Origin: Actinomycetes bacterium
GTDB taxonomy: Bacteria > Actinomycetota > Coriobacteriia > Anaerosomatales > Anaerosomataceae
Assembly: GCA_021373175.1 (NCBI GenBank)
Contig: JAJFTE010000096.1
Location: 1 to 64,000 of the forward strand
Length of the DNA stretch: 64,000 nt
Direction of reading: 5' to 3'
Numbering within the stretch: position 1 is the stretch's first letter; each line of letters starts with the position of its first letter. A model generated the notes under the pieces. That model saw only the letters and a program-made list of their open reading frames with translations, was not told where the DNA came from and did no database searches. Below, piece after piece: positions 46,479 to 58,802 of this stretch. The position numbers were made by a program, and so were the translations under genes.

Positions 46479-46682
46479 GCACCCAGCACGAACGTGTACC
46501 CAACCCGAGCCTGCCAGGCTTGCGTTCCTGTTCATCGAGCTTTCTTCGGGTTGAAACGAGCGCGAAACCGCGACCGCCTACCGTTGGTCACGAGGGGCCT
46601 CGCTCGCCGCTTCCCGCACCGCGCGTTCGGCCGGCGGTGACGTCTCCTCAGGAAGGTCATCGGACATCGGGAGGTGTGGCTC

Positions 46683-48302
46683 ATGGCTCCACGCACGAAG
46701 CCCGCTTGCGAGCGGCTCACCTGGCGGGATATCGCGGTGCGCGCGGGCGTGCGCACGCTCATCCTCGCCGTTCTCACGGTCGTGCTCATGACCGGGATCG
46801 CGTACGCGGCAGGCGACCCCACCGGGCCTGCCACCGGCGGTATCGGCAACGTGACGGCTGCGACTCCCGGCGCGCCAACGCTGCAGGAGGTCGCCGGTGA
46901 TCTCGGCCATCTGTCGATCGCCACCAACCTGTTCTTCGTGACCGTGGGCATGGCGCTCATCTTCTTCATGCAAGCGGGTTTCATGCTCGTTGAGACCGGC
47001 TTGTGCCGAGGCAAGAACGCGGCGCATGTGGCGATGACCAACTTCGTCATCTTCGCCATCGGCGCGCTCGCCTACTGGGCGGTCGGCTTCGCGCTGCAGT
47101 TCGGCTCGTTCGGACCTATCGGGCTGCTCGGCGGCGCACAAGGCGTGCTCGATGGCAACGCCTTCAAGCTCTTCGGCCAGGCCGTCGCCGGAACCAAGGG
47201 CTTCTTCCTCGGCTCGCTCGGTGACGGGACGCTCGACGTAGGGGCCTTCGCGTTCTTCTTGTTCCAGATGGTCTTCATGGACACGGCGGCAACCATCGTC
47301 ACGGGCGGCATGGCCGAGCGCTGGAAGTTCTCGGCGTTCATCCCGTTCGGCGTGTACATGGCGGCCTTCACGTACCCGCTCTACGGCATGTGGATCTGGG
47401 GCGGCGGCTGGCTCGCGCAGCTTGGCGCGAACTTCGGGCTGGGGCATGGCGCCGTGGACTTCGCGGGATCGAGCGCGGTGCACGCGATCGGCGGGTTCTC
47501 GGCATTGGCGGGCGCGCTTGTGATCGGCCCGCGCATCGGCAAGTTCAAGGCCGACGGCACGCCGGTCGCCATTCCCGGCCATCACATACCGATGGCGATC
47601 CTCGGCACGATCATCCTGGTGTTCGGCTGGATGGGCTTCAACGGCATGAGCACGCTTTCCGTCGGCGACCTGCGCTTCCCGATCATCATCGCGAACACGA
47701 TGCTGGCAGGCGCCGCCGGCTGTCTTGCCGCGATGTTCCTGGTGTGGAAGCTCTGGGGTCGTCCCGACCCCTCGATGACCGCGAACGGCATGCTTGCCGG
47801 GCTTGTGGCCATAACCGCCCCGTGCGCGTTCGTCACCCCGTGGGCCGCGGTCATCATTGGCACGGTCGCCGGTCTGCTCGTGGTCGGCTCGGTCATCTTC
47901 TGGGAGCGTGTCGCCAAGATCGATGACCCGGTGGGTGCTGTCTCGGTCCATGGCGTGAACGGCCTGTGGGGCATGCTCGCGCTCGGCTTGTTCGCTGACG
48001 GCACGTACGGGGCCGGTTGGAACGGCGTGAAGGGCGCGGTCACTGGTCTGTTCTACGGCGACGCGGGGCAGTTCGCGTCCCAACTCATCGCATGCGTTGT
48101 TGTGGCCGCATGGGCGTTCGGTACGATGTATGCGTTCTTCAAGGTCCAGGCGAAGACCACCGGGCTCCGCTCAAGCGAGGCTGACGAGCTTGCCGGACTT
48201 GATGCAAGCGAAATGGGCGTGCTTGCGTACCCGGACTTCGCGGGCAGCGGCGCGCTCGGCGCCGGTTCGTACACCGAGACACCTGTTGGGAGTGAGGCAT
48301 AG
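46683..48302 (+). CDS. amt: Ammonium transporter
   Basis: 539 residues, longer than usual Amt (about 400-450) because of an N-terminal signal-like segment (TLILAVLTVVLMTGIAYA) and a C-terminal tail. The pore set is present: FFMQAGFMLVETGLCRGKNA, GGMAERWKFSAF, the pore His in SSAVHAIGGFSAL and in SVHGVNGLWGML, and FGWMGFNGMSTL. ATG 46683 lies 8 bases after GGGAGG; a GTG at 46674 overlaps that box. It is followed by the PII gene, the classic amtB-glnK pair. Confidence 0.95.
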   Translation: MAPRTKPACERLTWRDIAVRAGVRTLILAVLTVVLMTGIAYAAGDPTGPATGGIGNVTAATPGAPTLQEVAGDLGHLSIATNLFFVTVGMALIFFMQAGFMLVETGLCRGKNAAHVAMTNFVIFAIGALAYWAVGFALQFGSFGPIGLLGGAQGVLDGNAFKLFGQAVAGTKGFFLGSLGDGTLDVGAFAFFLFQMVFMDTAATIVTGGMAERWKFSAFIPFGVYMAAFTYPLYGMWIWGGGWLAQLGANFGLGHGAVDFAGSSAVHAIGGFSALAGALVIGPRIGKFKADGTPVAIPGHHIPMAILGTIILVFGWMGFNGMSTLSVGDLRFPIIIANTMLAGAAGCLAAMFLVWKLWGRPDPSMTANGMLAGLVAITAPCAFVTPWAAVIIGTVAGLLVVGSVIFWERVAKIDDPVGAVSVHGVNGLWGMLALGLFADGTYGAGWNGVKGAVTGLFYGDAGQFASQLIACVVVAAWAFGTMYAFFKVQAKTTGLRSSEADELAGLDASEMGVLAYPDFAGSGALGAGSYTETPVGSEA

Positions 48303-48641
48303 ATGAAGAAGATCGAAGCCATCGTCCGTCCGGAGCGGCTCGAGGCGGTCAAAGAAGCGCTCATCACGCTGGGACATGCCGGCCTCACCGTGAGCGAGGT
48401 TAAAGGCCACGGTATCCAGAAAGGCATCACACAGCAGTGGCGCGGTCAGGAGTACTGCATCGACCTGCTTCCGAAGGTCATGATCATGGCCGTGGTGCAC
48501 GATCATGAGGTGACCGACGTTCTTGAGGCGATCACCGCGGCCGCGCGCACGGGCATGATCGGCGACGGCAAGATCTTCGTGAGCGCCGTGGAAGAGGTCG
48601 TCAGGATCCGAACCGGAGAGCGCGGGACCGAAGCGGTCTGA
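48303..48641 (+). CDS. glnK: PII nitrogen regulatory protein
   Basis: 112 residues. PII signatures are MKKIEAIVRPERLEAVKEAL, the T-loop region GHGIQKGITQQWRGQEYCID with the conserved Tyr in RGQEY, LPKVMIMAVV and TGMIGDGKIFV for ATP/2-oxoglutarate. It presumably gates the Amt channel next to it. It starts directly at the amt stop codon. Whether the T-loop Tyr is modified here is not known. Confidence 0.95.
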   Translation: MKKIEAIVRPERLEAVKEALITLGHAGLTVSEVKGHGIQKGITQQWRGQEYCIDLLPKVMIMAVVHDHEVTDVLEAITAAARTGMIGDGKIFVSAVEEVVRIRTGERGTEAV

Positions 48642-49090: not shown

Positions 49091-49122
49091 CACCGGCGAG
49101 CACCTGGTACCTGCTCGCCGGT
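49091..49122 (-). terminator. Terminator of the selenoprotein gene
   Basis: CACCGGCGAGCA and TGCTCGCCGGTG form a 12-bp stem with a short loop, 25 bases past the TAG stop; on the minus strand it is followed by CGTTTGTCG. Confidence 0.7.
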
Positions 49123-49147
49123 GAGAGGGTGGTCTGCCACATGAACG

Positions 49148-49885
49148 CTACTGCAGCGCGTCCAACTGCTGGCGCAACTGCGACTCAGACGCCTCGCCCA
49201 CGATCTCTTTGGCGATCGTCCCGTCGGCGTTCACGAACTCGAACGTGGGCACGAACTGCGCGCCCAGCTGATTCGCCAGCTTCGCGCCGGTGGCGTCCTT
49301 CTCCACGTTGTAGAGCTTGAACTCGACTCTGCCCTCGTACGCTTTCTTGAGCCCGTCGACCACGGGCTTCATCTTCTGGCACGAAGGTCACCAATCGGTG
49401 TAGAACTCGTAGAGCACCGGTAGCCCGCTTGCCGAGGGACTCAGTGTGCCCGCTGTCTTGCTGCCGCCGGATCCCGAGGTCACGTCACCGTCCCACGCGA
49501 CGATGCCGCCCTGCAGGTTGTACACGGTCTTGAACCCCGCCGAGGTGAGCATGCGCATCGCCTCGACAGAGCGGTCGCCAACGGCGCAGTATACGAGGAC
49601 CGGTTTGCCGGAGTCCCACGATCCTATCGCGGCGCCCAGCTGATCGAGCGGCACGTTCTCGGCTTGAGGGATGTGCCCCGCCTCGTACTCAGAGGCCGTG
49701 CGAACATCGATGATACGCACGCCCTTGCTCGCAAGCGACTTCGCTGCGGCGTTGTCCACGTTGCCCGCGGGGGGCAGACTATCGCCGCATCCCGCCGTGA
49801 CCAGGATCGCGGTCACGGCAAGCGCAGCGAGAACCGCACGCGCCCGGCGGTGTCCACCGGCCGGATTCTGTCTCAAGAGACGCAC
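49148..49885 (-). CDS. Rhodanese-thioredoxin fusion lipoprotein, selenoprotein (UGA as Sec)
   Basis: 245 residues if the in-frame TGA at 49390-49388 is selenocysteine. The order is a signal peptide with lipobox VTAGC (Cys33), a rhodanese domain (DVRTASEYEAGHIPQAENVP; active loop VYCAVGDRS, Cys100), a short Ser/Gly linker, then a thioredoxin fold whose active site reads FYTDW-U-PSCQKMKP, that is UPSC where CPxC is usual (Sec166, Cys169). The C-terminal part (YNVEKDATGAKLANQLGAQF, cis-Pro VPTFEFV) is a complete thioredoxin end. A SECIS-like hairpin follows the UGA. GTG 49885 has AGGAGG five bases upstream. Read as two genes, the second would lack its ribosome site and active site. Confidence 0.88.
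49350..49368 (-). promoter_or_regulatory. Bacterial SECIS-like hairpin
   Basis: AGCCCGT and ACGGGCT form a perfect 7-bp stem with apical loop GGTCG. The loop starts 27 bases after the UGA. Bacterial SECIS elements have a G or GU at the loop top 16-37 bases after UGA, and the well-known fdhF loop contains GGUC, as here. Confidence 0.8.
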
Positions 49886-49906
49886 AAGAACCTCCTCCAC
49901 GGTAGA

Positions 49907-49935: not shown

Positions 49936-50051
49936 CCTTCGTGCCGTGAGAAGAAGGCTGAGGTGAGTGGTTTCGTGGCACAATGAGACATTGAGGCCCT
50001 CCCGGTGCGCGCCGCCACGCGGGGGCCGGACGCCGGACCGAGAGCGTGGAC

Positions 50052-53000
50052 ATGGCACAGGCCGATTCTCCTCAACGCTGGAGTCTTCCCTCCGGCGACG
50101 ATCCGCTCCGCGGAGAACTGCTCAGCGCCGAGCGGCTCGCTGAAGCCGCACGCGACCTCGCCTCGGCACAGCGGTGGACCTCCGCCGAGACGCTTCGTGC
50201 AACGCCGCTGCTGCCGCTCTTAGAGCGCGCCGAAGAGTCGCTCCACGCGGTCTACGGACGCCTCGCCTCGGCAGCACGCCTGCAAACGCAGGTTTCTGTG
50301 GCCGCCGAGTGGCTCCTGGACAACTTCTACCTCGTCGAAGAGCAGATCAGAGCTGTCCGAGACGATCTGCCCAACGATTACGGCTCCGAACTGCCACGGT
50401 TGCTCGACGGCGAGCTCACGGAGTACCCACGCGTCTTCGAGGCGGTCTCGCTGCTCGTTACCGCGACCGACGCGCGCCTGGACCGCGACCACCTGGAGCA
50501 CTTCATCATGGCGTTCCAGGACATCTCCCCGCTCACGATCGGCGAGGTCTGGGCAACCCCGATCATGCTGCGGGTATGCTTGGTCGAGGACCTGCGGCGG
50601 CTTGCGCTGCGCGTGCTCGCCTCGCACGACCAGAGCGCCGCCGCGGACGATTGGGCCAACCGCATCCTCGAGGCGGCGCAGACACCGGGCGCCGATGTGA
50701 CCGCGCTCGCCGCCGAGCTCACGCACTCGCTCCCCCATCCGGGTCCGACGTTCCTCATCCGCCTCGCCCAGCGGCTGCAGGACCAGGACCCAAGCGTCGA
50801 GCCGGCGATCGCCTGGCTCGAGGCTGCGATGCGCGCCCGAGGCGAGGCGTTCGATCAGCTCACGCTTGCCGAGCATCAGTCCCAGGCGGCGGACCAGGTC
50901 TCGGTCGCGAACGCGATCACCAGCATCCGCTTCCTCGGCGCGCTTGAATGGCGCGAGTTCTTCGAGGACTGCTCCCTCGTTGAACGCGTGCTACGCGAAG
51001 ACCCCTCCGGGGTGTATTCGCGCATGGACTTCATATCACGCGACCGCTATCGCCACGCCGTGGAGCGGATCGCCGCGCGGTCTGCGCACACCGAGATCGA
51101 AGTGGCCGAAGCGGTCGTCAGCTATGCGCTTGATGCGCTGCGACGCGACGCCGCCGACCCGGTCGGCGGACATGTGGGGTACTACCTCATCAGCGGCGGC
51201 CGCTACGCCCTGGAGCGAAGCCTTGCGTACCACCCGAGCGCCCGCGAGCACATCTATCGCGGGCCGCTCGCCAGAAAGGGCGTCATCTTCTGGGGGCTGC
51301 TCGGGTCGCTCACGGCTTTCCTCGCGATCGGCATGGCCGTATACGTGCGGAGCCGGGGCGTCGGGCTGTGGTGGACGATCGCGCTCGTCGTGCTGTCGGT
51401 CGTGCCCCTTTCCGACCTCGCCGTGAACGTCGTCAACCGGATCGCGTCCACGATCTGGCCGCCACGGACGCTTTCAAAGCTCGACTACCTTCAGCCGGTC
51501 GCCACGGCGCACCGCACAATGGTGGTCATCCCTGCGCTCCTCACGTCGCCTGCCGGCACGCAGGCGGTCATCGACAACCTGGAACTCGCCTACCTGGCGA
51601 ACCGCGATGACAACGTGCGCTACGGGCTGCTCGGCGATCTTAAGGGTGGAGCCGAGGAGACCCTGCCCGACGACGAGACCGTGATCGACGCCGCGCGCCA
51701 CGGCATCGCGACGCTTAACGCAACCTACAGCGAGAACGGCGCCCGTCCCTTCCACCTGTTCATCCGCGCCCGGCGGTACAACCAGGCTGACGGCGTGTGG
51801 ATGGGTTGGGAGCGCAAACGCGGGGCGCTCCACGAGTTCGCGCGGTGGCTGCGCGGCGCAGCCGATACGAGCTTCTCGGTGATCGAAGGCGACTCGGCGG
51901 TCCTGCCCACCGTCACCTTCGTCATCACGCTCGACACCGACACCGTCTTGCCAAGAGACGCGGCCCGCAAACTCATCTCCACTATCGCGCACCCGCTCAA
52001 CCGCGCGCAACTTGACGCCTCAAGACGCCGCGTCATCCGTGGCTACGGCCTCGTGCAGCCGAGAGTGGCGATGTCGCTTGAAGGCGCGGAGCGCTCGCCG
52101 TTCGCCTGGCTGTACTCGGGCGTGACCGGCGTCGACCCGTATGCCGGCGCGGTCTCCGACACGTACCAGGACGTCTTCGGGGAGGGGTCGTTCACCGGCA
52201 AGGGCATCTTCGAGGTCGACGTCATGAACGCAGTGCTCGAAGACCGCTTCCCCGAGAACACCCTCCTGAGCCACGACCTCCTGGAAGGCAACCTCCTGCG
52301 CACCGCACTTGCAAGCGACATCGAAGTGCTCGACGACCAGCCCGCGAGCTACATCAGCCATGTAGCGCGGCTGCACCGCTGGGTGCGCGGTGACTGGCAG
52401 ACGCTCCCCTGGCTGGGCCTGAGCGTGCCCACCGCGAAGGGACGGGAGCGCAATCCCTTCTCGGCACTGCACCGCTGGAAGATCGTCGACAACCTGCGCC
52501 GCAGCTTGCTCGCGCCCACGATGATGCTCTTTGCCGGCGCCGGCTGGGTCGCGCTGCGCGGACCCGACTGGCTGTGGCTTGCGGCGATCCTCGCCATCGT
52601 GTTCTTCCCGGTATACTTCGGCATCGCCGACTCGCTGCTGTTCAGGCCGAGAGGCGCCGACGTAAGCGGCGACACGCACTCGATCATCAGCGACTTCTGG
52701 CGCGATTCGGCGCGCGCGCTGCTGAACCTGGCCGTGCTGCCGCATCAGGCGGTCGTGATGCTCGACGCCATCGTGCGCGCGCTGTGGCGCATGACGGTCT
52801 CGCACAACAAGATGCTGGAGTGGGAGACGGCGGCAGAAGCCGAGCGGCGGCTTGGCTCCACCTCGGCGGGCTTCCTTCGGCGCATGTGGACCGGCGAGGC
52901 GGCACTTGTGGCGGTCACCCTGCCGGCCGCTATCGCGGACCCGGCGTCGCTCGTCTCGGCGGCTCCGCTTCTGGCGCTGTGGGGGGCGTCGCCGCTCATC

Positions 53001-56000
53001 GCCTGGCGCGTGAGCACACCCACACGGCACGAGCCGCCTGCGCTCAGGCCCGGCGACGTCGCGGCCATGCGTCGCATCGCCCGCAAGACCTGGCGGTTCT
53101 TCGAGACGTTCGTGACCGCCGAAGACCACTGGCTGGCGCCCGACAACTTCCAGGAGGACCCCGGCGGCATGGTGGCGCACCGAACGTCGCCGACGAACAT
53201 GGGGTTGCAGCTTATCTCGGCGCTGACGGCGTACGACCTTGGCTACGTGAGCGTGCGCGGCCTGGTGGACCGGACGTCGCAGACGCTCTCCACGATGGCC
53301 GGCATGGAACGCTTCCGCGGCCACCTGTACAACTGGTACGACACCACGACGCTGCAGCCGCTCAGGCCCGGCTACGTCTCGACGGTGGACAGCGGGAACC
53401 TCGCCGGCCACCTGGTCGCGCTGCGGGTCGGCCTGACGGAGATCGCCGAACGGCCGCTGATGGACGCGCAGGTGCTCGACGGCATCGCCGATACCGTGCT
53501 GCTCGCGCTTGAGGAGCTGCTCGGCCAGCGCGAGAAGCTGGGACCCGTTGCGACCACGGTGGAGCTGCGCACCTCGCTTGAGGAGCTTCTGCGCAGGATC
53601 CGCCTCGACCGGCCGCCCGGGGAGCTGGCCGAGTGGCGCTCGCTCCTTGAGGGCCTCGCCGCGCTTGCTAACGCGCTGCCCGCCCGGCTCGCCGGGCTGC
53701 GGGGCGACCCGCTCGCGCTCGATGTCGTGCGCGACGCGGTGGGCGCGGTGGGCACGTGCCTGCGCGAACACCTCTCGGACCTCGATACGTACGCGCCCTG
53801 GGCCCACCTTGTCGGCAACGTCCCGGACGCGTTCGCTACCGGAGAGCGCGGCGTGGCGCTTGCGCCCGTGACGCGCCATGTGCCAAGCCTCGTGGGGCTT
53901 GCCGAGCGCCTCGACGGTGTCCTCGTGAGCCTCGAGGACACCTCGGGCCTCGATGAGCCCGCGCTTGCGTGGGCCGAGAAGCTCGCAAGCGGCATCCGCG
54001 AGCGTCGAGGCGCGGCGGTCCAGCTGCTCGCGGAGCTGCGGCTCTCGACCCAGATCGCCCACGAGATGTGGGAGCACACGGACTTCGAGATGCTGTTCGA
54101 CCACAGCCGGATGGTCTTCTCCATCGGCTTCAATACCGCCGAGGGGCGTCTCGACGACTCCTTCTACGACATGCTCGCAAGCGAGTGCCGGCTGGCGAGC
54201 TACCTTGCGATCGCGAAGGGCGATGTGCCACAGGAGCACTGGTTCCGCCTCGGCAGGCCTATCGCGCGAACCGAGGGCGGACGGGCGCTGGTGTCGTGGA
54301 GCGCCAGCATGTTCGAGTACCTGATGCCGCTTCTGGTGATGCACGATTGGCCGGACACGCTGCTCGACCAGACGTACCGCAACGTCGTCAAGCGGCAGAT
54401 CCAGTACGGCAAACAGCGCGGCGTGCCGTGGGGCGTCTCGGAAAGCGCGTTCAACGCGAAAGACGTGGACCTCACGTACCAGTATCAGGCGTTCGGCGTG
54501 CCCGGGCTCGGACTCAAGCGTGGCCTGTCGGACGATGTGGTGGTCGCGCCCTACGCCACGGTGCTGGCGCTGCCTATCGATCCGCGCGCCGCGCTTGACA
54601 ATCTCGACGTGCTCACGAGGCAAGGTGCCGAAGGACGCTACGGCTACTTCGAGGCTGTCGACTACACGCCCGGCCGCGTCCCCGCTGGCAAGGAGCGCGC
54701 GGTCGTGAAGGCGTACATGGCGCACCACCAGGGCATGAGCCTGGTCGCCCTCGGCAATATGCTCACGCACGAACGGATGCAGGAGCGTTTTCATGCGGAC
54801 CCGGTGATCCGCTCGGCGGAGCTGCTTCTGCAAGAGCGCGTGCCGAGACGGACCCAGCTGGCGCAGCCGCATGTTGAGGAGGTCAAGTTCGTGCGAGCGC
54901 TGCGCGACATCGCGCCGCCAGTGCACCGTTCGTACCCGCTCGCCGGCACGCCGATCCCGGCCACGCACTTCCTGTCGAACGGGTCGTACTCGGTGATGGT
55001 CACCAACGGCGGTGGCGGGTACAGCCGCTGGCGCGACCGCACCGTGACCCGCTACCGCGAGGACGTCACACGCGACTGCTGGGGCCAGTTCTTCTACCTC
55101 AAGGACGTGCAGAGCGGCGAGGTCTGGTCGTCCGCATACCAGCCCACGCTCGCCGAACCCGACGAGTACCACGTGACCTTCTCGGCGGATAAAGCCGAGT
55201 TCCGCCGGCTTGACGGCGAGGTCGAGACGCACACCGAAGTGGTGGTCTCGCCCGAAGACGATGTCGAAGTCCGGCGCATCACGGTCACGAACCGGCGGCG
55301 CACGCCGCTTCTGCTCGAGGTCACCTCGTACTTCGAGGTGACGCTCGCGCAGGGCGAGTCCGACCACGCGCACAAGGCGTTCAGCAACCTGTTCGTGCAG
55401 ACCGAGGCCGTCGACGAGCTCGACGCGCTGCTCTTTTCGCGCAGGCCCCGCTCGGCGGACGAGAAGCGCCCCTGGGGCATGCACGTGCTCGCGTGCGACC
55501 TGGGGGATACGTGCAACTGGAGCTTCGAGACGGACCGCGAGGCGTTTCTTGGCAGACTGCACACGCCGGGCGACGCCCGTGCGATCTGGGGCGGCGGCAG
55601 GCTTTCGGGCTCGACGGGCGCGGTGCTCGACCCGATCTGCTCGATACGCCAAACGCTTGCGATCGACCCTGGCGAAACGGCGCACCTGGCGTTCACGACC
55701 GGTGCCGCCGAGACCCGCGAGGACGCCATCGCGCTTGCCGAGCGGTACCACGACATCCGCAGCGCGCAGCGAGCGCTCGACCTGGCGTGGTCCACCAGCC
55801 AGATCGAGCTGCGCGACCTCGGGATCACACCAGAAGAAGCGGTGACGTTCCAGCGGCTGGCCTCGCGACTGCTGCTCACGGACCCACGGTCACGGCTCAA
55901 GGTGCTCACAAAGCTCGAGAACCGGCTGCCCATCTCAGGACTGTGGTCTATCGGCATCTCGAGCGACTACCCGATCCTGCTCGTGAAGATCGAAAGGCTC

Positions 56001-58802
56001 GAGGAGACACGGCTGGTCCGACAGGTGCTGCTCGCCCATCAGTACTGGCGCTCGAAAGGCTTCGAGTGCGACCTCGTCATCTTGAACACCAAGCCGAGCG
56101 CGTACGCCTCGGAGTTGGACGGGCGCCTGCGAATGCTGCTGCGAACCGGTCACGCGCTGCAGCTGCAGGACCGTCCCGGTGGCGTGCACCTGCGCGTCGC
56201 CGACCAGGTGCCCGCCGATGTCCGCAACCTGCTCGACAGCGTGGCGCGCGCCGTGCTCACGGGCGACGGCGGCCCGATCGGGCTGCACCTCAACCTGCGC
56301 GCCACCCACGAGGCGCAGCCCGACCCGCTCGTCCCCACTGCGCCGGTGGCAAGCGACCCGGCTCCCGCGTTCAAGCGGCCCGCGCTCGTCAACGATAACG
56401 GCTACGGCGGCTTCGACCCGGAGACCGGCGAGTACGTGATCGTGCTTGAGGACGACACCGCGACCCCGGCGCCGTGGGTGAACGTCATCGCGAATCCGCG
56501 GTTCGGCGCGCTCGTCTCGGAGGCTGGCATCGGCTGCAGCTGGGCCGAGAACAGCCACGAAAACCGTATTACCACCTGGAACAACGACCCGGTGAGCGAC
56601 GGGACCGGCGAAACGTTCTACGTTCGCGACGAAGAGACCGGCGAGTTCTGGAGCCCTACGCTTCTGCCCGTGCGCGACGCGGCGCCGCACATCATCCGCC
56701 ACGGCCGCGGCTACACCAGCTTCGAGCACACGTGCCACGGCGTGCGCCACGAACTCGACTGGTTCGTGGCCGCCGACGACCCGGTGCGCATCGTGCGCGT
56801 GCGGCTCACGAACGTTTCCGAGCGCCATCGGCGTCTCTCGGTGACGCACTTCATCGAATGGGCGCTCGGGGACTCGCGCAGCAAGGCGCAGCAACAGGTG
56901 GTGACCTGGTGGGACGAGTCCGCCCGGATGCTCATGGCCCACAATTGGTTCAACCTCGACTTCCCGGGCCGTCCGGCGTTTCTCGCGTGCGACTGCGATG
57001 TGGACTCGTTCACGGCGAGCCGCACGGAGTTCCTCGGCAGGAACGGCGATCCGCGAGACCCGGCGGCCATGCATCGCCGCGCGCTCGGCGGCTCCACCGG
57101 ACGCTTCCTGGACAACTGCGGCGCGCTCATGCGCACGGTCTCGCTCGAGCCGGGTGCGTCGGCCCAGATCGCCTTCTTCCTCGGCCAGACCGAAAGCGCC
57201 GAGGAAGCGCATGCGCTCATCGCGCGGCTGCGCGAGCACGGCGCGCCGGAGGCGGAGCTGGCCGAGGTACGCCGGCGCTGGGAGGCCACGCTCGGCACGA
57301 TCGAGGCACGCACCCCCGACGCGGAACTCGACCGCATGGTGAACGGCGCCGCGCTCTACCAGACGCTCGCGTGCCGGTTCTGGGGCCGCACCGCCACGTA
57401 CCAGTCAAGCGGCGCGTTCGGCTTCCGCGACCAGCTGCAGGACTGCCTCGCGCTTATGTACGCGCGCCCCGACCTCGTGCGCGAGCACATCGTGGAAGCA
57501 GCTCGCCGTCAGTTTCCGGAAGGCGACGTGCTGCACTGGTGGCAGCCGGTCTCGGGCCGGGGCGTGCGCACACGCTTCGTCGATGACCGCCTGTGGCTGC
57601 CGTTCGTGACCGCCGAGTACATCGAGACGACCGGCGACGCATCGGTCCTCGAAGTCGAGGTGCCGTACCTCGAAGGCCCGCCGGTGCCCGAGGGCCGCGA
57701 GGACCTCTACCTTCAGGTGCAGCCGTCGGTCCGTCTCGGCAGTATCTACGAGCATTGCCGAGCAGCCATCGATATCAGCCTCGCTACCGGTGCCCACGAC
57801 CTGCCGCTCATGGGCGGCGGCGACTGGAATGACGGAATGAACCGCGTGGGCATCGGCGGCAGCGGCGAGAGCGTGTGGATGGCGTGGTTCCTCGACGTGG
57901 TCCTGCGCGCCTTCGCTCCGATCGCCGAGAAGCACGGCGAGGCCGACGCCGCGACGCGGATGCGCGAACACGCCGGCGCGCTCATCGTGGCGGTGGAACG
58001 CGAAGCATGGGACGGCGCGTGGTACCGGCGCGCGTTCTTCGATGACGGCACGCCCCTTGGCACGCACACCGCTGACGAATGCCGCATCGACGCCATCGCG
58101 CAGGCCTGGGCGATAATCGCCGGCACCGGCGACCGGGGCCGGGCGCAGCGCGCGCTCGCGAGCGTGGAAGAGAAGCTCGTGCGCTGGGATGACGGGCTCA
58201 TAGCGCTCCTCTCCCCACCGTTCGATCGCATGGAGCGCGACCCCGGCTACATCAAGGGCTACGTCCCCGGCGTTCGCGAGAACGGCGGGCAGTACACGCA
58301 TGCGGCGATCTGGGTGGCCCTCGCGTACGCACTCATAGGCGACGGCGACGAGGCGGTCGCACTGCTCGATCTCATCAATCCCGCGAGCCACACGCTCGAT
58401 CGCGAAGCCGCCGACCGGTACCGCGTGGAGCCGTACGTGGTGGCCGCCGACGTCTATGCGATAGAACCGCACGTGGGCCGCGGAGGCTGGACCTGGTACA
58501 CCGGCTCGGCAAGTTGGTATTACCGGGTGGCGGTGCAAGACATTCTCGGCTTGCATCTGGAGGCCCAGGATGGCGAGCGGTACCTGCGTATCGACCCGTG
58601 CGTCCCAAAGACGTGGACGTCGTGGTCGGTGACGTTCCGGGACGCCGACGCCGTCTACAACATCACCGTCGAGAACCCGCGCGGCGTCAACAGGGGCGTC
58701 GCCCGCGTCATCGTCGACGGCGTCGGACAAGACGACCTGCGGGTTACGCTTTGCAAAGCGGCCGGCACACATGACGTCCATGTTGATATGCTCGGCGGAT
58801 AG
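50052..58802 (+). CDS. Cyclic beta-glucan synthase-like protein (GT84-GH94, NdvB/ChvB type)
   Basis: 2916 residues, close to the 2832 of NdvB. The N-terminal part contains two membrane helices (about 415-460) before a GT84 glycosyltransferase: FVITLDTDTVLP with DxD at about 627-629, SHDLLEG, and the QxxRW-like RLHRWVRGDWQ. More helices follow (about 815-860 and 950-990). Then a glycoamylase-like domain (about 1010-1600) and tandem GH94 halves: LSNGSYSVMVTNGGGGYSRW, and C-terminal GGGDWNDGMNRVG (about 2592) with the phosphorylase Asp. The family makes and trims cyclic beta-1,2-glucans at the membrane. ATG 50052 is chosen; GTG 50046 is in frame. No partner exporter gene (ndvA) is seen nearby. 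Confidence 0.9.
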   Translation: MAQADSPQRWSLPSGDDPLRGELLSAERLAEAARDLASAQRWTSAETLRATPLLPLLERAEESLHAVYGRLASAARLQTQVSVAAEWLLDNFYLVEEQIRAVRDDLPNDYGSELPRLLDGELTEYPRVFEAVSLLVTATDARLDRDHLEHFIMAFQDISPLTIGEVWATPIMLRVCLVEDLRRLALRVLASHDQSAAADDWANRILEAAQTPGADVTALAAELTHSLPHPGPTFLIRLAQRLQDQDPSVEPAIAWLEAAMRARGEAFDQLTLAEHQSQAADQVSVANAITSIRFLGALEWREFFEDCSLVERVLREDPSGVYSRMDFISRDRYRHAVERIAARSAHTEIEVAEAVVSYALDALRRDAADPVGGHVGYYLISGGRYALERSLAYHPSAREHIYRGPLARKGVIFWGLLGSLTAFLAIGMAVYVRSRGVGLWWTIALVVLSVVPLSDLAVNVVNRIASTIWPPRTLSKLDYLQPVATAHRTMVVIPALLTSPAGTQAVIDNLELAYLANRDDNVRYGLLGDLKGGAEETLPDDETVIDAARHGIATLNATYSENGARPFHLFIRARRYNQADGVWMGWERKRGALHEFARWLRGAADTSFSVIEGDSAVLPTVTFVITLDTDTVLPRDAARKLISTIAHPLNRAQLDASRRRVIRGYGLVQPRVAMSLEGAERSPFAWLYSGVTGVDPYAGAVSDTYQDVFGEGSFTGKGIFEVDVMNAVLEDRFPENTLLSHDLLEGNLLRTALASDIEVLDDQPASYISHVARLHRWVRGDWQTLPWLGLSVPTAKGRERNPFSALHRWKIVDNLRRSLLAPTMMLFAGAGWVALRGPDWLWLAAILAIVFFPVYFGIADSLLFRPRGADVSGDTHSIISDFWRDSARALLNLAVLPHQAVVMLDAIVRALWRMTVSHNKMLEWETAAEAERRLGSTSAGFLRRMWTGEAALVAVTLPAAIADPASLVSAAPLLALWGASPLIAWRVSTPTRHEPPALRPGDVAAMRRIARKTWRFFETFVTAEDHWLAPDNFQEDPGGMVAHRTSPTNMGLQLISALTAYDLGYVSVRGLVDRTSQTLSTMAGMERFRGHLYNWYDTTTLQPLRPGYVSTVDSGNLAGHLVALRVGLTEIAERPLMDAQVLDGIADTVLLALEELLGQREKLGPVATTVELRTSLEELLRRIRLDRPPGELAEWRSLLEGLAALANALPARLAGLRGDPLALDVVRDAVGAVGTCLREHLSDLDTYAPWAHLVGNVPDAFATGERGVALAPVTRHVPSLVGLAERLDGVLVSLEDTSGLDEPALAWAEKLASGIRERRGAAVQLLAELRLSTQIAHEMWEHTDFEMLFDHSRMVFSIGFNTAEGRLDDSFYDMLASECRLASYLAIAKGDVPQEHWFRLGRPIARTEGGRALVSWSASMFEYLMPLLVMHDWPDTLLDQTYRNVVKRQIQYGKQRGVPWGVSESAFNAKDVDLTYQYQAFGVPGLGLKRGLSDDVVVAPYATVLALPIDPRAALDNLDVLTRQGAEGRYGYFEAVDYTPGRVPAGKERAVVKAYMAHHQGMSLVALGNMLTHERMQERFHADPVIRSAELLLQERVPRRTQLAQPHVEEVKFVRALRDIAPPVHRSYPLAGTPIPATHFLSNGSYSVMVTNGGGGYSRWRDRTVTRYREDVTRDCWGQFFYLKDVQSGEVWSSAYQPTLAEPDEYHVTFSADKAEFRRLDGEVETHTEVVVSPEDDVEVRRITVTNRRRTPLLLEVTSYFEVTLAQGESDHAHKAFSNLFVQTEAVDELDALLFSRRPRSADEKRPWGMHVLACDLGDTCNWSFETDREAFLGRLHTPGDARAIWGGGRLSGSTGAVLDPICSIRQTLAIDPGETAHLAFTTGAAETREDAIALAERYHDIRSAQRALDLAWSTSQIELRDLGITPEEAVTFQRLASRLLLTDPRSRLKVLTKLENRLPISGLWSIGISSDYPILLVKIERLEETRLVRQVLLAHQYWRSKGFECDLVILNTKPSAYASELDGRLRMLLRTGHALQLQDRPGGVHLRVADQVPADVRNLLDSVARAVLTGDGGPIGLHLNLRATHEAQPDPLVPTAPVASDPAPAFKRPALVNDNGYGGFDPETGEYVIVLEDDTATPAPWVNVIANPRFGALVSEAGIGCSWAENSHENRITTWNNDPVSDGTGETFYVRDEETGEFWSPTLLPVRDAAPHIIRHGRGYTSFEHTCHGVRHELDWFVAADDPVRIVRVRLTNVSERHRRLSVTHFIEWALGDSRSKAQQQVVTWWDESARMLMAHNWFNLDFPGRPAFLACDCDVDSFTASRTEFLGRNGDPRDPAAMHRRALGGSTGRFLDNCGALMRTVSLEPGASAQIAFFLGQTESAEEAHALIARLREHGAPEAELAEVRRRWEATLGTIEARTPDAELDRMVNGAALYQTLACRFWGRTATYQSSGAFGFRDQLQDCLALMYARPDLVREHIVEAARRQFPEGDVLHWWQPVSGRGVRTRFVDDRLWLPFVTAEYIETTGDASVLEVEVPYLEGPPVPEGREDLYLQVQPSVRLGSIYEHCRAAIDISLATGAHDLPLMGGGDWNDGMNRVGIGGSGESVWMAWFLDVVLRAFAPIAEKHGEADAATRMREHAGALIVAVEREAWDGAWYRRAFFDDGTPLGTHTADECRIDAIAQAWAIIAGTGDRGRAQRALASVEEKLVRWDDGLIALLSPPFDRMERDPGYIKGYVPGVRENGGQYTHAAIWVALAYALIGDGDEAVALLDLINPASHTLDREAADRYRVEPYVVAADVYAIEPHVGRGGWTWYTGSASWYYRVAVQDILGLHLEAQDGERYLRIDPCVPKTWTSWSVTFRDADAVYNITVENPRGVNRGVARVIVDGVGQDDLRVTLCKAAGTHDVHVDMLGG

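Follow-up and report, generated by a model that had tools for sequence, protein, structure and literature searches.

A gene on the minus strand of the window (the whole stretch of DNA that was analysed, 64,000 nucleotides) is predicted with near certainty to encode a selenoprotein, in which a rhodanese domain is followed by a thioredoxin domain carrying selenocysteine (Sec) at the first redox position. Taken as a whole, the analysis makes it fairly probable that this is a selenoprotein shared by an entire order of deep-branching anaerobic actinobacteria, an exported and tethered fusion that acts as a persulfide/disulfide reductase. Sec thioredoxins and Sec rhodaneses are already known; what is new is the Sec form of the rhodanese–thioredoxin fusion, fixed across an order. 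The gene runs from a GTG at 49885-49883 to a TAG at 49150-49148, and residues are counted from the GTG at 49885. Its parts and its neighbours are the following:

49148–49885, minus strand: rhodanese–selenothioredoxin gene, 245 codons plus TAG (translation with TGA as U, Pfam, 53 full-length homologous loci)
49891–49896 (read 49896-49891), minus strand: Shine-Dalgarno sequence AGGAGG, 5-nt spacer to the GTG
49787–49885, minus strand: N-terminal signal or anchor with a lipobox-like VTAGC (Cys33 at 49789-49787), weak in its own sequence
49490–49744, minus strand: rhodanese domain PF00581, Pfam E = 4e-20, preceding the TGA
49586–49588, minus strand: rhodanese active-site Cys100 (YC-AVGDRS), kept in 52 of 53 full-length homologues
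49160–49420, minus strand: thioredoxin domain PF00085, Pfam E = 3.4e-14, spanning the TGA, with the redox motif UPSC and the invariant cis-Pro213
49388–49390, minus strand: in-frame TGA, predicted selenocysteine 166
49379–49381, minus strand: Cys169, the resolving cysteine of UxxC, without variation in the homologue alignment
49350–49368, minus strand: predicted bSECIS hairpin, 7-bp stem, loop GGUCG at 49361-49357 (covariation, published bSECIS model, stem codon bias)
48303–48641, plus strand: glnK (P-II), named by inspection
46674–48302: amt, before glnK, named by inspection
50046–58802, plus strand: NdvB-like giant open reading frame of 2918 aa, divergent neighbour of the fusion gene, named by inspection only

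With TGA read as Sec, the product has 245 residues and begins with a hydrophobic N-terminus, followed by the rhodanese domain and, after some 20 linker residues, by the thioredoxin domain. The rhodanese match (72.6 bits, curated cut-off 22.2) includes the catalytic cysteine in a CxxGxRS loop, and the thioredoxin match (53.1 bits, cut-off 23.5) includes a CxxC-type motif, here UPSC, together with the cis-proline. According to the preliminary description, one gene combines a rhodanese with a thioredoxin whose first redox Cys is replaced by Sec, and the frame continues past the TGA through a whole thioredoxin C-terminus; the domain matches clearly bear out this layout, the TGA at 49390-49388 standing in the context YTDW-U-PSC-QKMKP. 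Directly 3' of the gene, a perfect 12-bp inverted repeat with a 9-nt loop (49091-49123) resembles a terminator with a weak T run.

The distribution of the gene was investigated in 398 genomes of the class, about 69 of which belong to the order of the window. Matches were obtained in 57 genomes, all of them within this order. The full fusion was found at 53 loci in 51 genomes, representing 14 family codes, while the other matching genomes contained a Sec-thioredoxin without rhodanese or, in one case, apparently a split gene. At the aligned Sec site the codon was TGA in 74 of 74 loci, fusions and Sec-thioredoxin-only relatives together, and never a Cys codon; the count includes four records with names, of which three or more duplicate genomes of the set. 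Named members of the family are Actinobacteria bacterium 1MN72D_65_13, Actinomycetes bacterium LH_M22, Actinomycetota bacterium KR13_S3.mb.94 and Coriobacteriia bacterium E2_metabat.bin.6. The Sec position, the resolving cysteine and the cis-proline were invariant in an alignment of 37 sequences. No Cys orthologue was found within the order. The one full-length match free of TGA, L213 (genome G101), was rejected as such, having lost both the rhodanese cysteine and the Sec/Cys site, and is a degenerate or non-catalytic member. When 396 genomes drawn from the phylum were searched, full-length matches to the fusion were confined to the window's own family; none was obtained among 80 fetched GTDB loci except for four Sec relatives, and none on viral contigs.

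The machinery for Sec insertion was searched for in the genome to which the window belongs (2.15 Mb, 98.9% complete, 144 contigs). A tRNA-Sec with UCA anticodon (68.1 bits), SelB, SelA and SelD were all detected above their curated cut-offs, thus passing the check for selA, selB, selC and selD that had been proposed, and the SelD gene itself contains a TGA near its N-terminus (SGUAAK). SelB scored above cut-off in 32 of the 38 fusion genomes examined, and tRNA-Sec was found in two more. Neither was detected in G115 and G099 (86-90% complete) nor in G047 and G051 (96-98%). The latter two, both near-complete MAGs, count against the favoured explanation. An assembly gap is perhaps responsible, and a single one could cover both genes, as in related genomes only a few kb separate selB from selC. 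Two near-complete genomes, G022 and G073, lack SelB, tRNA-Sec and any Sec form, as expected. A genome-wide reassignment of TGA was rejected: this codon closes 14 other long open reading frames among the 35 in the window (a fifteenth in the count being the fusion gene itself, cut at its Sec codon), and several members of the family also end at TGA. As TGA is an ordinary stop in the window, Sec recoding and not an altered genetic code is indicated.

A hairpin, AGCCCGU-GGUCG-ACGGGCU, is located 20-38 nt after the TGA, with its loop beginning about 26-27 nt downstream, at 49361. The published model of the bacterial SECIS comprises a loop of 3-9 nt with G in one of its first two positions, a stem of 4-16 bp, a distance of 16-37 nt from UGA to loop and a minimum free energy of at most -7.5 (PMC13188914). 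The hairpin has a 5-nt loop GGUCG, 7 bp, a distance of 26 nt and, folded alone, -12.0 kcal/mol, values that lie within every limit of the model. The 7-bp element with a GGTC-type loop had been noticed beforehand at this spacing; its covariation, along with the invariant TGA, rules out a chance occurrence. Loops read N-G-U in 70 of 70 aligned loci. Overall, 93.9% of the cells were paired and 45 carried a double change, compared to 12.9 +/- 3.4 in shuffles, none of which (0/500) reached as high a value; sliding the partner by one base lowered the pairing from 94% to 37-48%. Changes on both sides were seen in three of the seven stem pairs. Pair 27-37 is U-A in 39 rows, C-G in 28 and G-C in one, and pair 28-36 occurs as five pair types, with no broken pair at either. 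Mapped on a tree from which the stem residues had been left out, the two core pairs that vary require 7 and 5 changes (about 12 in total), every one of which preserves pairing. A test on independent pairs agreed in four of four cases for pair 27-37, too few supported pairs for significance alone. Conservation does not extend to the outermost pair, 23-41, which was unformed in 28 of 68 rows.

Arginine was encoded by AGG in 34 of 36 cases at the stem vs 55 of 491 (11%) elsewhere, proline by CCT in 34 of 53 vs 51 of 527 (10%), and glycine by GGG in 17 of 17 vs 191 of 1144 (17%); the p-values for this bias are pooled and inflated by relatedness. The stem dictates codon choice, including rare Pro and Arg codons. 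A search of Rfam returned no SECIS family, only chance matches. On the sequence evidence, UGA is recoded to Sec via a predicted SECIS inside the coding sequence.

Regarding its cellular location, the protein is probably exported and membrane-tethered, usually through an N-terminal helix. The exported location proposed in the preliminary description is consistent with the hydrophobic export or anchor segment present in nearly all of the proteins. The lipoprotein signal proposed with it held for the genus of the window and a few others, but not for the family. About 10 of the 53 homologues, mostly from this genus, match a loose lipobox pattern, while about 43 do not, nearly all of them having a hydrophobic N-terminal anchor, and lipidation was rejected as a family trait. 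In the lipobox of the gene itself, V-T-A-G-C, position -3 is occupied by a non-canonical T (test pattern [LVI][ASTG][GA]C), whereas relatives of the same genus display the canonical LAGC, LTGC or VAGC. In the genome, the order amt-glnK, fusion gene, ndvB recurs across families: of the 15 full-length loci examined with wide flanks, 14 have the NdvB-like frame beside the fusion gene in divergent orientation, often with glnK-amt on the opposite side. No sulfur or functional link to these neighbours was seen. At this same locus, G019 and G028 carry a Sec-thioredoxin without rhodanese (L186 and L188), so the gain or loss of the rhodanese took place at a fixed position.

The architecture had been thought undescribed. 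In the literature searched, mostly outside subscription journals, no description of a rhodanese–thioredoxin selenoprotein was found, and no model of such a fusion was among the matches in NCBIfam 20.0. An exported Cys fusion does exist, however, on megaplasmids of Persicobacter (Bacteroidota), where it surfaced only in a plasmid protein search (L242, 1351-2109; L244, 1405-2109) and is without annotation in the gene table used. Both proteins (253 and 235 aa) share the domain order and the N-terminal signal and score above both Pfam cut-offs, with rhodanese loops CHSGGRS and CYSGGRS, but they belong to another phylum, are 26-27% identical and have Cys in place of Sec (WCGSC, WCATC). The architecture is thus not confined to selenoproteins, and the alignment with Cys homologues that had been suggested as a check yields precisely the Cys/Sec pair sought in selenoprotein identification. 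Elsewhere, in Paenarthrobacter and Deinococcus, single matches covered rhodanese and trxA/TlpA genes lying side by side.

Among the prokaryotic selenoproteins inventoried in 2026 (PMC13188914) are Sec thioredoxins, Sec rhodaneses and TsoB, a rhodanese/DsbD protein. The known Sec-containing thioredoxin (PF00085, UxxC; PMC13188914) has the same fold, motif and downstream bSECIS, while the thioredoxin described here is predicted to be exported and membrane-anchored, is fused to the C-terminal side of a rhodanese and has Sec in every intact member of the order found. TsoB (NF045694; PMC13188914), a rhodanese/DsbD fusion-like selenoprotein, likewise couples rhodanese to a thiol-redox module, but has the Sec motif UxxxxU, a DsbD-like membrane part and a model of 572 positions, against which our protein scored 30.7 bits (cut-off 805). 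In the Sec-containing rhodaneses (forms 1-4, including NF041203 rhodanese_LYCAU; PMC13188914), rhodanese and selenium also occur together; there Sec is in the rhodanese, whereas here the rhodanese keeps its Cys and the thioredoxin carries the Sec. Cys homologues are reported for nearly every selenoprotein (PMC13188914), and the lack of a close Cys orthologue across 14 families is unusual. Gene callers that treat TGA as a stop would shorten the product to its rhodanese.

As for the reaction, Cys100 of the rhodanese would form a persulfide by collecting sulfane sulfur, whether from thiosulfate, polysulfide or persulfidated thiols. The tethered Sec166-Cys169 pair would attack this persulfide, freeing sulfide; alternatively, the pair may serve general reduction of protein disulfides and persulfides. 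A CcdA/DsbD-type membrane thiol exporter would return the resulting Se-S bridge to its reduced form from the cytoplasmic side; three matches to such exporters exceeded the cut-off in the genome. Selenocysteine would offer a fast nucleophile of low pKa, resistant to dead-end oxidation. The chances of the persulfide-reductase mechanism are judged to be about even. Coupling of the two sites is favoured by L213, in which the rhodanese Cys was lost along with the Sec/Cys site. Against it stand several genomes in which a Sec-thioredoxin occurs with no rhodanese; in two of these it occupies the same locus, so that the rhodanese partner is dispensable. The AlphaFold2 model, computed from five sequences, was too poor (mean pLDDT 59.8) to judge whether the two sites can meet. 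With both partners in one chain, the chemistry is directly testable in vitro, and the protein lends itself well to the question of which tasks in persulfide handling outside the membrane selenium can perform and sulfur cannot. It seems rather unlikely that the enzyme is an obligate-selenium exported persulfide reductase with an order-wide extracytoplasmic role in sulfane-sulfur metabolism, tolerating no Cys-only orthologue and possibly yielding a rhodanese-only product when selenium is scarce.

The main rival is a general extracytoplasmic disulfide reductase, since Sec-thioredoxin alone survives in some genomes. The selenoprotein would then carry out ordinary thiol-disulfide reduction, e.g. 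in a ResA/TlpA-like manner to mature cytochrome c, or to repair exported proteins that have been oxidised, with the rhodanese accessory or regulatory. The genes L186 and L188, as well as separate Sec-thioredoxin paralogues, point to a thioredoxin that works alone, and multiheme cytochromes c are present in cultured relatives (PMC9686372). Retention of the rhodanese cysteine in nearly all fusions argues against this role, as does the separate Cys thioredoxin already located beside the best CcdA of the genome; the possibility is a real one, held to be distinctly less probable than persulfide reduction.

The remaining alternatives concern the reading of the TGA. If it were a true stop, as TGA normally is in the window, translation would yield a rhodanese lipoprotein, leaving the thioredoxin part as a pseudogene or a remnant that is never translated. 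This is highly improbable and was refuted on sequence: the downstream protein is conserved, including cis-proline and resolving cysteine, behind a TGA that is invariant in 74 loci, with a covarying SECIS and selABCD present. A sequencing or assembly error turning TGC or TGT into TGA has a negligible probability and is refuted by the recurrence of TGA at this place in all 74 of those loci, which come from dozens of different assemblies. Of the observations that could have overturned the original proposal, namely missing selB or selC, homologues with TGA-free frames and no Cys at the site, or reads with TGC or TGT in its place, none was made. Decoding and termination at UGA compete in bacteria. 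With scarce selenium, translation could stop at the UGA, which in the fusions follows a complete rhodanese domain, and release a rhodanese lipoprotein, the Sec-thioredoxin being added when selenium is available. Such dual output is considered improbable, and the unfinished first thioredoxin strand left on the short form could destabilise it.

Beyond the class of the window, Sec thioredoxins seem widespread in the phylum. Thioredoxin-domain matches with one TGA were observed in G563, G717, G631, G621, G495, G475 and G520, all of the same phylum. Within G101, a second and distant group of membrane-anchored thioredoxins (FHSLTCxPC) is represented by L231, in which TGA occupies the position of the first Cys (FHSLSURSC). 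Its Cys relatives are L214, L215, L228, L233, L234 and L235, the last of which belongs to the genome of the window and adjoins a CcdA gene.
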